Shown: positions 1-4,456 of the stretch, one piece after another
Numbering within the stretch: position 1 is the first letter of the stretch
Layout of the letters: each line of letters begins with the position of its first letter
NCBI RefSeq assembly: GCF_000018585.1
Contig: NC_009976.1
Coordinates: 1,173,982-1,237,981, forward strand
Reading direction: 5' to 3'
Source: Prochlorococcus marinus str. MIT 9211
Lineage (GTDB): Bacteria; Cyanobacteriota; Cyanobacteriia; PCC-6307; Cyanobiaceae
Length of the DNA: 64,000 nt
Notes under the pieces: generated by a model
What the model was told of the DNA's origin: nothing
The model's input: only the letters and a program-made list of their open reading frames with translations
Databases searched by the model: none
Program-made: the position numbers and the translations under genes

Positions 1-143
1 ACATCGAACCCCTTACATCCAGCCAAGGTATATATAAAGGATAGTTTTCTGACTTCATTGATGTCTTCATTACCTGCGCCACAAACCAGCTTAAAAAAAG
101 ATCCCGTCGACAAAAGCTCCTTATATCTCGCGAATCTATCCAT
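1..143 (-). CDS. LdpA-like iron-sulfur protein, N-terminal part only (runs off window)
   Basis: The first 47 codons of a minus-strand gene whose remainder lies outside the window. The start is the ATG preceding codons for DRFARYKELL. Residues 15-45 carry FFKLVCGAG followed by a VRKLSFIYTLAG stretch. This resembles the N-terminus of cyanobacterial LdpA (light-dependent period protein, an Fe-S protein of the circadian input), where the motif is typically FKLICGAS and YTLAGAD. It diverges at several conserved positions (CKGFD instead of ADCID), so it may be a paralogue rather than LdpA itself. It lies 54 nt downstream of the HAD gene in the same direction and is probably the last visible member of that operon. 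Family call by recall only. Confidence 0.5.
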   Translation of the reverse strand, partial: MDRFARYKELLSTGSFFKLVCGAGNEDINEVRKLSFIYTLAGCKGFD

Positions 144-197
144 CGATCAATTAAATACATGTAGATAATAACATTTTTAAAGGTAAAAGGAATTAAC

Positions 198-959
198 CTA
201 CTGTTGATTGACAATAATTTCCTTTAGGGTTTGAACTGATGAAGGATTAATTGAAAGTAATTCTTCTAATCCTATTTGACCTGTTGCTACAAGTATTGAA
301 CCCGCTAATTCTGCTTTGTTGGCCATAATATAATCCATTTTCGCATCTCCTATTGCCATAACATTATTAGGAGATAAACAAAGAGATTTACAAACCTGCA
401 AAGCTGGTTCTCCTGTAATCTTTTTCCCATACCCAGAATCTCCGCCTAAAATAATCTCGAAAATATTCATTAATTCTAATTTTTGTAAAGTGGAAATAGC
501 GTTATACTCCTTATCACTTGTAACCAATGCAAGCTTAACTCCTAATGAATATAATAGCGTGGCAAAATTTAGTGCTGATTCTAATGGCTTAATATAATTA
601 TTAGATTCTATTTTGAAGCCTAATTGAACTGATTCAAAGATTAAGTTTATTTCTTTTTCTGTAGATTGTATTGAATGATTATATAAATATCTTAAAACAG
701 CATCTATAACTTCATCCCTACTTTTTATAGCTATTGGTCCCTCTGGCAAAAGTCGATTAGATGAGCTGTCAAATCCCATTGATAGCATAAGGCTATGCAA
801 ATATGATTTTGGGAGTTTAAACTCTTTTAAAAGAATATTAGCCCTCCTTAAGATAATTTCTTTCCAGTAGATATGACTATCTGTAAGAGTACCATCTTTG
901 TCAAAGATGACAGCCTTGATGTTTTTATAAGTTCTCTGGTTTACACTAATATCTACCAT
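198..959 (-). CDS. HAD-superfamily hydrolase (phosphatase-like)
   Basis: A 253-residue HAD hydrolase. Motif I is FDKDGTLTDS with the nucleophile Asp20 and acid/base Asp22. Motif II is LALVTSD. The lysine motif is in GKKITGEPAL, and motif IV is AIGDAKMDYIMA. All catalytic signatures are intact, with an alpha-helical cap at about residues 35-130, as in phosphoglycolate phosphatase-type (HAD-IA) enzymes. It starts 6 nt after the stop of the aldolase gene upstream, so the two are almost certainly co-transcribed. The substrate cannot be read from the sequence. The neighbourhood suggests a phosphorylated sugar acid or similar intermediate, which is inference. The operon is separated from the housekeeping genes by a tRNA. 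Confidence 0.8.
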   Translation of the reverse strand: MVDISVNQRTYKNIKAVIFDKDGTLTDSHIYWKEIILRRANILLKEFKLPKSYLHSLMLSMGFDSSSNRLLPEGPIAIKSRDEVIDAVLRYLYNHSIQSTEKEINLIFESVQLGFKIESNNYIKPLESALNFATLLYSLGVKLALVTSDKEYNAISTLQKLELMNIFEIILGGDSGYGKKITGEPALQVCKSLCLSPNNVMAIGDAKMDYIMANKAELAGSILVATGQIGLEELLSINPSSVQTLKEIIVNQQ

Positions 960-965
960 ATTAAT

Positions 966-1757
966 TCATTCAATCCTGGCTTTTATTACACCTATCCTAA
1001 TATTCTCTTCTGCTGATCGAAGTTCATATAAGGCCCTCTTATATCTTAACCAAGCAAGTTCAAACTGTAGTCCTTTATTGATAATATCTACAAAATATTC
1101 CCTTGAACAGTTTTTTGAAGATCTAAAGGTACATTTCCTAGACTCAAAAGAATCGAGTCCAAAAGAACTTAGTCGGTCTATAAATTCAAAACTATTTGTT
1201 GACAAATTACCGCCTACGGTAAATCCTATAGACCTTGAGGATGCCTTTGTATGAATTTGTTTGGCAATCTCAAAAATTTCTAGCGAGTTAACATCACTTA
1301 TATTTAAAGAAGCGGAAAGGTCTGTCCTACCTAAGACAATAGAAGAGATAGGCAGTTTATAGGAATCGATAGTCTGTAAAATCGAATCAAAATTTTTAAC
1401 TGCTAATTTTGTCTCTATGTTTACAAAAAGCTTCGGTTTCTGTTTTAATACATGGAAAACAGGCAAAAGTTTCGAGAAAGTCTCTGAACAAACTTCTACA
1501 GCAAATGAGGACTCAACCATTGGTATTAAAATATTAGAAGCTCCTAATTGAAAAGCTTCATAAATATCTCTACTTGCAGACGGTCCTCCCACTTTTAGAG
1601 TAAGAGGAATTGAGTATTTACAACAAAGTTGAGATAATACAGATAGCTCTTCGATACGAGTTCCTTCTGCCTCAAATTCCGCCTTAATAGCCAATAATTG
1701 ACTTGTTTTAGAAAGATCTAGAAGACTATTCTCTAAAACAGATAAATACGTTTTCAT
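966..1757 (-). CDS. HpcH/HpaI aldolase/citrate lyase-family protein
   Basis: A 263-residue TIM-barrel protein of the HpcH/HpaI aldolase (citrate lyase beta-like) superfamily. Recognisable blocks are KAEFEAEGTR (24-34), GGPSASRDIYEA (58-68), PMVES (79-83), the NIET acidic motif (113-116), GRTDLSAS (143-150; compare GPNDLSAS in HpcH) and FESRK (204-208). These include the acidic metal-binding and arginine positions expected for an active aldolase acting on a 2-oxo acid. Relatives with the AEFEAEGTR and E(T/S)RK motifs occur, to my recollection, in surface-polysaccharide loci of diverse bacteria. Its ATG shares one base with the stop of the upstream paralogue (TAATG), implying translational coupling. 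The exact substrate is unknown. Confidence 0.7.
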   Translation of the reverse strand: MKTYLSVLENSLLDLSKTSQLLAIKAEFEAEGTRIEELSVLSQLCCKYSIPLTLKVGGPSASRDIYEAFQLGASNILIPMVESSFAVEVCSETFSKLLPVFHVLKQKPKLFVNIETKLAVKNFDSILQTIDSYKLPISSIVLGRTDLSASLNISDVNSLEIFEIAKQIHTKASSRSIGFTVGGNLSTNSFEFIDRLSSFGLDSFESRKCTFRSSKNCSREYFVDIINKGLQFELAWLRYKRALYELRSAEENIRIGVIKARIE

Positions 1758-2539
1758 TAAACTAAACTCTCAATTATAAAATTCATCATATGCATTTGCC
1801 TCTTGTTTACATAACTATGTTTAAAGTGCATTGAATTATTCATAAGGTCAAGTAGCTTGGCTTCTATACTTTGAAAGTTTAATATTTTTCTAGAGAGTTC
1901 ATCTATAGAAAAACCTTCTCTTGATATAGTAAACAAGCCTGTTTTGATAAAATCAGGCTTAATATTAGCTTTGCCTAGACAATGAAGACTTTGATTACTT
2001 ATTCCTCCACTTATAGAAAAAGAATGTCCAGAGTCTTTTAATGGCTTAGATATCTCCAAAATAATATGATTAATCTGATTTTCATAGTCTGAAACTTCAT
2101 AAGAGGATGTTCTTATGTTTCTTGAAGACCTAATTAAGCTTCTACGATTAAGATTAAAAATAAGATTTGATCGTTTCAAAAAAGATGGTATTGATAACTT
2201 CTTAACATCCAAAAGCATCTCTAGAGCATCTTTTGTACATATGTCTATAAAGATTTTATGCTTAGCCAAAAGACTTAAATCATCAGAAAAGACTTTCTCA
2301 AGTGCAAGAAAGATCTTGGAAACCGAAAATAACGATTCAACAAGAGGGAATTCATACGCTTCAACTCCAAGATTCCTAGCCTCCTGAAGGTCTCTTATTG
2401 ACTCAGATCCCCCCATCATTGAACAAAATAGGAACCCATTAACATGAGAGTAATTTCGTAGCATTAAAGTCTCTGAAATGTCTAGCCCAAATAAATGCTC
2501 ACTAGCATTTAAGAAAATCAAATTATTTTCACTCATCAA
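1757..2539 (-). CDS. Degenerate paralogue of the adjacent HpcH/HpaI aldolase
   Basis: A 260-residue protein that aligns with its downstream neighbour over most of its length: GGSESIRDLQEARNLG against GGPSASRDIYEAFQLG, and FPLVESLFSV against IPMVESSFAV. The catalytic blocks have been lost. The NIET acidic motif is DICT, GRTDLSAS has become NRRSLIRSS, and FESRK has become FIKTG. The fold is probably kept without aldolase activity, suggesting a structural or regulatory partner of the intact enzyme, perhaps a heteromeric ring. That role is inference. The ORF is full-length with no frameshift, which argues against simple decay. It is the first gene of the run that continues into the aldolase, HAD and LdpA-like genes. 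Confidence 0.6.
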   Translation of the reverse strand: MMSENNLIFLNASEHLFGLDISETLMLRNYSHVNGFLFCSMMGGSESIRDLQEARNLGVEAYEFPLVESLFSVSKIFLALEKVFSDDLSLLAKHKIFIDICTKDALEMLLDVKKLSIPSFLKRSNLIFNLNRRSLIRSSRNIRTSSYEVSDYENQINHIILEISKPLKDSGHSFSISGGISNQSLHCLGKANIKPDFIKTGLFTISREGFSIDELSRKILNFQSIEAKLLDLMNNSMHFKHSYVNKRQMHMMNFIIESLV

Positions 2540-2755: not shown

Positions 2756-4456
2756 TTAAGCATAGTATTTATTTTTCGACATCTTTCCTATTCCAGCATT
2801 AAATGAATTGGTTGGGTCTATCTTCTTATAAAAGTTAGACAAGTCATGTTCAGCAAAGTACAAGTGGCCGACATTATGTTCTGCAGGGTATTTAGCTCCT
2901 GCTTTATCTAAGACTGATAAAATTTCTTTCTTGATTTTAACAAGGTCTGATTCTGAATTAAAGACGAAATCCCAATGAAAAACCATGCATAGGAAATGTC
3001 CCATTTGAAAAGAAGCTTCTGACTCTAAAAACGCACTTTCAGGAAGAATTTCATGCCAATTTTTGTTGTTCCTAGGCAAAGCAACATCTAAGGGAAGCAA
3101 GCTAGTTGTTTGATCTTCATTAATAATGCAAAACCTCTTTGGTGCAATTCCTGCTACATATCTATGTAAAAGCAAATCTTCACCTTCGGACTGAGAGCAT
3201 TCGAGAAATTTAACATCACTAGTATTATTTATTTTTTTGGCAAGCATATCTCTAGTCTCTTCTATACATAGATCACTAGACTTAATTATTAGAAGGTGAG
3301 AGTATGCATGTCTATATTGCCTTATTCTGACTGGAAGGTGATCTGGTAACAGTTGAGCGTGGTTATGCAATATCTTTTCAAATAAGTTTTTCTTAGCAAA
3401 GGGAAGCCGATCAAAAAATAAATCAAATCGTTTTTTAAGTTTAAATAGCCTAGGCATAAATCTCTGACCAAAATATTTAATTATTAGAAATGTATCTTTC
3501 CCATATTTATCTGCTCCATCAAAAAAGCTTTTATGCATATACTCTGCCATGTCAGGCAGTTGATCAAAAGAAGTTAGTATTTCTTTCCGTATTTGACTAA
3601 AGTTACCTGGATTATTTGTCCCCACCAAAAAAACCTGCTCATTTTTTGGCTTTATAAAAGTATCCAATCGGACTGCAAATACAGCAATTTTACCAGCGCA
3701 CCCACTAGAATCATACAAACGTCTTTTATCAGAGTTAAATCTAGCGGGTATTTTAGAAGTCATATCTCGTAAACGATTTTTATATTCATAATCAGAGGCT
3801 TTTCTGTGAGTGTACGGTAAATTATTCTGATCAAATTTAGCATTTTCAAGATTACATAATATCTCTTGTGGTGTTTCACCAAGATCAATACCAAGGTTAT
3901 TAATTAATTCCAATTCTCCGTTTTTATCTACAGATGCATAAAGAGATAATTCAGTATATGCAGGACCTCTATTAACTAAATTTCCTCCAGAATTATTACA
4001 TATGCCTCCTATTATAGAAGCCCCAATACATGATGATCCTATCAATGAATGAGGCTCCCTCCCATAATCTAACAAAATATTTTCTAGATTTGATAGCGTA
4101 GAGCCAGGGAGCGCAATGACTTGTTTGGCATTATTTAATAATATTATTCTATCAATAGCTAATGTATTTATAATTACTACATCTCGATCATAAGTATCTC
4201 CATCAGGAGTTGAGCCTCCTGTAAGTCCTGTATTCGCTGCCTGTATAATAACAATCTTATCTAAGAAAATACAAAGATTTAAAATATCCCAAAATTGAAC
4301 TAGGTTTTGAGGTAAAACAACAAAGCTTGCTATCCCTTTGCCTACTCGTATACCCTCTCTATAACTTTTAGTTTGACTATTACCTGAGAGAATATTTTCT
4401 TCATCTAAAATCTGACTTAAACCCTTCTTTAATTCTTCTAGTCTGTCATCTCTCAT
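2756..4456 (-). CDS. dld: Quinone-dependent D-lactate dehydrogenase (Dld)
   Basis: A 566-residue flavoprotein matching E. coli Dld (571 aa, from memory) along its whole length. Matching blocks include QAANTGLTGGSTPDGD (FAD/PCMH domain), REPHSLIGSSCIGAS, IGGICNNSGGNLV with RGPAYTE, GIDLGETP, SSGCAGK and AVRLDTF. Further blocks are MHKSFFDGADKYGKDTF and, near the C-terminus, YPAEHNVGHLYFAEH, then DPTNSFNAGIGKMSK. Dld oxidises D-lactate to pyruvate at the cytoplasmic membrane face and passes electrons to quinone. It has no transmembrane segment; membrane binding is through a basic patch. This enzyme is not part of the ordinary picocyanobacterial core and sits beside a tRNA, so acquisition by transfer is plausible. 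The start ATG precedes RDDRLEELKKGL. Confidence 0.93.
   Translation of the reverse strand: MRDDRLEELKKGLSQILDEENILSGNSQTKSYREGIRVGKGIASFVVLPQNLVQFWDILNLCIFLDKIVIIQAANTGLTGGSTPDGDTYDRDVVIINTLAIDRIILLNNAKQVIALPGSTLSNLENILLDYGREPHSLIGSSCIGASIIGGICNNSGGNLVNRGPAYTELSLYASVDKNGELELINNLGIDLGETPQEILCNLENAKFDQNNLPYTHRKASDYEYKNRLRDMTSKIPARFNSDKRRLYDSSGCAGKIAVFAVRLDTFIKPKNEQVFLVGTNNPGNFSQIRKEILTSFDQLPDMAEYMHKSFFDGADKYGKDTFLIIKYFGQRFMPRLFKLKKRFDLFFDRLPFAKKNLFEKILHNHAQLLPDHLPVRIRQYRHAYSHLLIIKSSDLCIEETRDMLAKKINNTSDVKFLECSQSEGEDLLLHRYVAGIAPKRFCIINEDQTTSLLPLDVALPRNNKNWHEILPESAFLESEASFQMGHFLCMVFHWDFVFNSESDLVKIKKEILSVLDKAGAKYPAEHNVGHLYFAEHDLSNFYKKIDPTNSFNAGIGKMSKNKYYA

Follow-up and report, generated by a model that had tools for sequence, protein, structure and literature searches.

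A run of tightly packed minus-strand genes at the left edge of the window (the whole 64,000-nucleotide stretch analyzed here, G000:C1:1173982-1237981 in a single-contig genome of 1,688,963 bp) raises the question of what these genes make together. A first-pass annotation had recognized an aldolase (Ald2), a degenerate paralogue of it (psAld), a HAD phosphatase and the N-terminus of an LdpA-like Fe-S protein (LdpAl), and had proposed that they work jointly, together with the Fe-S partner, to produce a sugar-acid metabolite, perhaps for surface glycans. Our analysis supports this proposal, in that the genes co-occur widely and LdpAl is not the ordinary ldpA product. With moderate confidence, we favor the reading that this operon represents one version of an undescribed pathway leading to a CMP-activated 2-keto-3-deoxy sugar acid that is destined for a surface glycan. 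Literature searches, mostly in openly accessible papers, found no description of the gene set, which is weak evidence of absence.

Gene Content and Genomic Setting of the Operon

The four genes are present on the minus strand with almost no spacing (Table 1). psAld and Ald2 overlap by one base, a gap of 6 nt separates Ald2 from the HAD gene, and 54 nt lie between the HAD gene and the start of LdpAl at position 143. The initial list of four was correct and lacked two members, a second aldolase gene (Ald1) and a KdsB-like gene, because the window edge cuts the operon; both were recovered when the sequence to the left of the window was inspected for further members, as the annotation had advised. 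The reading frames of LdpAl and Ald1 overlap by 17 bp. In its full extent the unit consists of five minus-strand genes and the convergent KdsB-like gene, inside a glycan island, with dld 216 bp away on the other side. Scans for promoters and terminators gave no signal above chance level.

Table 1. Positions of the operon genes, of dld and of the LdpA-like paralogues adjoining LdpAl in other loci. Plain numbers are window positions; window position = L002 position - 9982.
Feature	Position	Strand	Description
psAld	1757-2539	minus	pseudo-aldolase paralogue of Ald2, 260 aa
Ald2	966-1757	minus	HpcH/HpaI-superfamily aldolase, 263 aa, PF03328 3.6e-9
HAD phosphatase	198-959	minus	HAD superfamily, 253 aa, PF13419 3e-18
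LdpAl, N-terminal 47 codons	1-143	minus	LdpA-like protein, predicted 2[4Fe-4S] TIM barrel
LdpAl, whole gene	L002:9100-10125 = G000:C1:1173099-1174124		341 aa, complete left of window
Ald1	L002:8373-9116	minus	second HpcH/HpaI aldolase, left of window
KdsB-like	L002:7640-8398		CMP-Kdo-synthetase-like, convergent with Ald1
dld	2756-4456	same as operon	respiratory D-lactate dehydrogenase, upstream of psAld
Degenerate LdpA-like paralogue	L055:11035-11874, L057:11018-11869, L058:5980-6840, L062:944-1849, L064:11110-11979, L037:10582-11433		

To the left of the KdsB-like gene lie CDP-sugar genes, an epimerase gene, a GT2 glycosyltransferase gene and a gene for a 537-aa protein. The last of these shows profile homology (E 1e-9) to a family of ~600 aa whose genes come after KdsB at numerous other loci and which bears a weak resemblance to an O-antigen biosynthesis family. 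This transferase-like family, common to the picocyanobacterial and other loci, is a candidate transferase. The presence of glycan genes on this side, the KdsB-like neighbor and the absence of KdsA strengthen the sugar-acid reading, and the operon with its adjacent CMP-sugar synthetase probably makes an acidic sugar for the cell surface.

The genome also encodes NeuB, ~50 kb from the operon and near another CTP transferase. Elsewhere in the same island, a single plus-strand run (L150:15181-19336; G000:C1:1159680-1163835) encodes a HAD protein, a GAPDH-like protein, a CTP transferase, an HpcH/HpaI aldolase (32% to Ald1) and a 2-hydroxyacid dehydrogenase. This set looks like another CMP-sugar-acid pathway.

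Ald2 Is Paired with a Metal-Site-Deficient Paralogue

Ald1, Ald2 and psAld share a family with the HpcH/HpaI class II pyruvate aldolases (HpaI, GarL, YfaU and SbnG). The Glu/Asp metal ligands of these enzymes are present in both Ald1 and Ald2, whereas psAld has lost the metal site. Ald2 matches PF03328 with 36.7 bits (gathering score 25) and carries the signature K25..E.E.EG, LK.GG, PMVES, GR.DL and ESR. Among 19 aligned Ald2-type proteins, there is little or no variation at K25, E29/E31, K55, PM[VI]E, E115, D146 and the E.R motif, and all 19 retain both metal ligands, E115 in NIE[ST] and D146 in GR.DL. Catalysis in HpaI involves a His and an Arg; by visual inspection of the alignment, Ald2 has F in place of the former and K in place of the latter. 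The earlier description of Ald2 as an intact aldolase thus fits its metal ligands and does not extend to the His/Arg pair.

psAld reaches the cut-off of no Pfam family, but profile comparison with hhalign identifies it as a paralogue of Ald2 (E 4e-13). Its AF2 model (pLDDT 93.1) is matched best by SbnG (4tv5; Z 15.7, rmsd 3.5, 192 aligned) in a ranking topped by HpcH/HpaI entries, with CLYBL and pyruvate kinase less than 1 Z behind, and by 4mf4 in Foldseek (E 3e-7). The gene directly precedes Ald2 in each of eight loci. All eight proteins have lost the Lys, the Asp and the ESR motif, and seven have lost the Glu, while the psAld-specific motifs GG.ESIRD, FINI, R132 and IKTGLFT are mostly retained. 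Open frames and the retention of these motifs in the eight loci rule out a decaying pseudogene. What the annotation called a degenerate paralogue is, as judged from its sequence, a conserved pseudoenzyme beside its active paralogue. We infer that the two proteins form an Ald2:psAld heteromer. Such a conserved active/inactive pair provides a clean case for studies of pseudoenzyme partners.

In genome G008, the psAld-Ald2-LdpAl trio lies between genes for heme oxygenase and two ferredoxin-dependent bilin reductases (L036:8880-14256). Ald2 relatives are also found without LdpAl in other picocyanobacteria (L124-L131), mostly near genes for a TPP enzyme and a DegT-type aminotransferase and CDP-glucose genes.

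LdpAl Belongs to a Clade Apart from Canonical LdpA

LdpAl, the sole LdpA relative in its genome, scores 127 bits against the canonical LdpA model (NCBIfam NF045992), for which the equivalog cut-off is 450. It exceeds the gathering scores of LdpA_C (34.6 versus 22.2 bits) and of the LdpA Fe-S domain (29.5 versus 27.6 bits; PF12617/PF25160). Five of 149 relatives are 60-69% identical to LdpAl, and other LdpA relatives are 29-37% identical. A tree of 83 sequences, to be read with caution because it was made by a quick method and long branches meet in it, separates an LdpAl clade (54 rows) from 24 canonical LdpAs, with SH-aLRT 99 on both branches. By this tree, the LdpAl clade is distinct from canonical LdpA and spans many phyla, archaea and viral contigs. 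The score and the separate clade together rule out that the fragment in the window belongs to an ordinary ldpA gene, a possibility that the annotation had itself raised against its proposal. Canonical LdpA, an input component of the cyanobacterial clock, shares with LdpAl the 2[4Fe-4S] insert and most conserved residues. In contrast to it, LdpAl, at about 30-37% identity, is operonic with sugar enzymes and is not confined to cyanobacteria.

A scan of 84,980 genomes recovered 62 loci, and a separate scan of viral contigs recovered ten; LdpAl was not found among annotated phage and plasmid records. LdpA has been called exclusive to cyanobacteria (PMC5520375), but the scan places LdpA relatives in non-cyanobacterial phyla as well. 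Relatives in Gastranaerophilales and other Melainabacteria (L086-L100, L103-L110 and L113) also run counter to this statement.

Predicted Fold and Possible Function of LdpAl

The AF2 model of an LdpAl orthologue (69% identical; pLDDT 91.8) is a TIM barrel with a ferredoxin inserted after the third strand. Its best structural match is KDPG aldolase (8di1; Z 18.4, rmsd 2.7, 207 aligned). Near-ties, at Z about 17 and under, come from deoxyribose-phosphate aldolases, ribulose-phosphate epimerases and hexulose-phosphate synthases. Because several kinds of phosphate-binding barrel match about equally, the fold does not name the reaction of LdpAl. The matches listed by a profile search of the PDB were all of the ferredoxin type, and searching viral models by fold produced no hit with an E-value of 0.001 or lower. 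Across 54 sequences, divergent Melainabacterial ones included, K18, D47, S85, D91, H93, E171, H173, Q230, D232, R303 and eight Cys are invariant; most of these residues are also present in canonical LdpAs. The prediction for LdpAl is a TIM barrel that binds phosphate and contains a 2[4Fe-4S] ferredoxin insert; this fold, together with the invariant active-site-like residues, makes it a likely enzyme of phosphorylated sugars.

A different view of the same protein is that, like canonical LdpA, it is a redox or light regulator that controls the aldolase, HAD and CMP-sugar enzymes via its Fe-S clusters and has no catalytic activity of its own. Its distant homology to the clock-input redox sensor, the invariance of its eight Cys and the existence of clade members that lack the module are consistent with such a role. 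However, a regulator would not be expected from the invariant polar residues in a phosphate-barrel fold, from the occurrence of LdpAl in non-photosynthetic bacteria, archaea and viral contigs, or from its constancy when the enzymes around it are exchanged, and we consider a regulatory function unlikely.

The Gene Set Recurs in Distant Lineages

The proposal would have been refuted had these genes been scattered in relatives with no co-occurrence; the set instead co-occurs in very distant genomes. Its conservation across many phyla excludes a chance origin. When LdpAl loci of freshwater Synechococcus, Sericytochromatia and Gastranaerophilales / Melainabacteria are set apart, an aldolase gene lies beside LdpAl in 40/40 loci that are not cut off, nearly always together with HAD and CMP-sugar synthetase genes. 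An aldolase gene (Ald1, or a DRE-TIM HMGL-like aldolase gene, HMGL) and a HAD gene occur within 2.6 kb of LdpAl in all 19 non-cyanobacterial cellular loci, and KdsB lies within this distance in 15 of these; in the other four, the contig stops less than 2.5 kb to the right. According to their records, the carriers include Acidimicrobiales, Chloroflexi, Nitrosomonadales, Rhodocyclaceae, Thioglobus, Bacteroidales, Omnitrophota, Bacteriovoracaceae, a Micrarchaeon and a Methanomicrobiales archaeon. Marine picocyanobacterial loci carry either HMGL or Ald2 with psAld within 4 kb of LdpAl, and never both (11/11: the window, L034, L052, L053, L054, L055, L057, L058, L060, L062 and L064; L033 duplicates the record of L052, and L056, which is cut off, was left out). 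The operon is horizontally mobile.

In the viral contigs (L114-L123), whose viral origin rests on the IMG/VR collection and a few phage-type neighbors, Ald2 lies within 2 kb of LdpAl in 10/10 cases and a TPP enzyme gene is present in four. A short gene directly follows LdpAl; in L114, the one tested, it encodes a BT0820-type HAD. Several of the ten contigs also carry phosphatase and CMP-transferase genes.

LdpAl-clade genes without the module were found in five freshwater Synechococcus loci, in two Sericytochromatia and in Gastranaerophilales. One of the freshwater genes (L067-L070 and L073), that of L067, directly follows the gene for DNA polymerase III delta'. A position of these genes at the ordinary ldpA site was considered and not supported, as the ldpA loci tested have different neighbors within the 1.5 kb of flank compared. 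Genome G028 (99%-complete) keeps psAld, Ald2 and LdpAl, lacks the KdsB-like gene and Ald1, and encodes four other CTP_transf_3 proteins.

Unrelated Aldolases Replace Each Other

In two further genomes of the same genus (G001 and G002), the site between the 537-aa gene and dld holds an LdpAl that is 68% identical, a HAD protein of another family, a KdsB that is 39% identical and, in place of Ald2, psAld and Ald1, an HMGL. LdpAl is the most constant part where enzymes are swapped in this way. The replacement of one pyruvate-type aldolase by another, unrelated one suggests that the aldol step is the shared function. HMGL is closest to 4-hydroxy-2-oxovalerate aldolase (DmpG/BphI) and to an uncharacterised Bacteroides structure (3dxi), which belong to the same family. 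It differs from DmpG/BphI in its length of ~540 aa, in an extra C-terminal part and in its location within glycan clusters.

The aldolases might instead run in the direction of cleavage, with the operon serving as a catabolic or recycling unit in which 2-keto-3-deoxy acids are split and the neighboring D-lactate dehydrogenase uses the product. Among characterised HpcH/HpaI and 4-hydroxy-2-oxovalerate aldolases, the nearest ones serve catabolism, and dld follows the operon at the same site in three genomes of the genus. Yet dld is set off by 216 bp and is not among the genes that recur with the module in other lineages, and the link to a CMP-sugar synthetase and glycan genes is constant. We judge a catabolic function to be very improbable.

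The class that contains the Rhodocyclaceae genome (L111) yielded six further HMGL genes, all in genomes without LdpAl, and in 5/5 cases with enough flank these genes cluster with one for a CTP transferase and one of the same HAD family. These clusters imply that aldolase, HAD and CMP transferase form a wider core to which LdpAl was added in one branch. Since they work without LdpAl, its step is not universal. No consistent substitute for LdpAl turned up when one was sought in them; its position is taken by ELM1-like, APH-like, MptE-like or unassigned genes.

Relation to the Kdo Pathway

The HAD protein is of the subfamily IA type (PF13419, 66.9 bits), with motifs FDKDGT, TSDK and GDAKMD intact, and reaches 15.5 bits against the KdsC model, below the cut-off of 208. 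The KdsB-like protein exceeds the thresholds for CTP_transf_3 (151 versus 22.6 bits) and the PRK05450 subfamily (217 versus 193 bits), falls short of the kdsB equivalog TIGR00466 (127 bits, cut-off 155) and, by eye, keeps its motifs. There is no match to the KdsA model TIGR01362 in the genome of the window. The operon shares the logic of the Kdo pathway (KdsD-KdsA-KdsC-KdsB), in which a C-C bond is formed to give a 2-keto-3-deoxy acid phosphate, a HAD phosphatase acts and a KdsB-type enzyme transfers CMP. It differs in having metal-type pyruvate aldolases in a genome devoid of KdsA, in its additional Fe-S barrel protein and second aldolase, and in the subfamily of its HAD protein.

A KdsB-like enzyme without KdsA could also indicate an alternative route to ordinary Kdo, with a pyruvate aldolase replacing KdsA. 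To our knowledge, however, the Gram-positive and archaeal carriers have no Kdo-LPS. Sixteen module genomes were sampled for KdsA: six already have a true KdsA alongside the module, so that a second Kdo set would be redundant there, and none above cut-off was found in the Acidimicrobial, Chloroflexi, Methanomicrobial and picocyanobacterial carriers. The score of the HAD protein is not KdsC-like, and the LPS of marine Synechococcus lacks Kdo (PMC4515613). Ordinary Kdo is accordingly an improbable product.

A Proposed Route to a CMP-Activated Sugar Acid

Against the background of the genes, folds, conserved residues, co-occurrence and non-orthologous swapping described above for this operon family, we infer each reaction, the order of reactions and the product as follows. 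In step 1, a pyruvate-type aldolase, Ald2 held by its inactive partner psAld or the HMGL-like enzyme in relatives, would join pyruvate to a phosphorylated aldehyde. LdpAl would make or convert the phosphorylated substrate in step 2, possibly with a requirement for electrons. The HAD enzyme would then remove the phosphate (step 3), the KdsB-like enzyme would couple the acid to CMP (step 4), and a transferase of the neighboring 537-aa family would add the sugar acid to the glycan (step 5). Ald1 might carry out a further C-C bond step or the synthesis of the acceptor. The operon points to a nucleotide-sugar pathway that is so far undescribed and that a very abundant lineage of marine phototrophs would share with unrelated bacteria, archaea and viral contigs. 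Surface glycans bear on interactions with phages and grazers.

More tentatively, the LdpA family as a whole might be an enzyme family, in which a sugar-phosphate TIM barrel receives electrons from a built-in ferredoxin and performs a new reductive step toward CMP-activated sugar acids of a new class, with horizontal transfer among bacteria, archaea and viruses; we hold this broader idea to be possible but doubtful. If it were true, canonical LdpA would be the relative of an enzyme, with most active-site residues kept, and would no longer be solely a redox sensor of the cyanobacterial clock. LdpAl offers a testable handle on the molecular mechanism of LdpA, whose control over CikA abundance is reported to be unexplained (PMC13421787).

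In six Prochlorococcus loci, LdpAl is adjoined by a degenerate LdpA-like paralogue (Table 1) that has lost the entire ferredoxin insert and most of the invariant residues. From its sequence, this paralogue is a second conserved pseudoenzyme.
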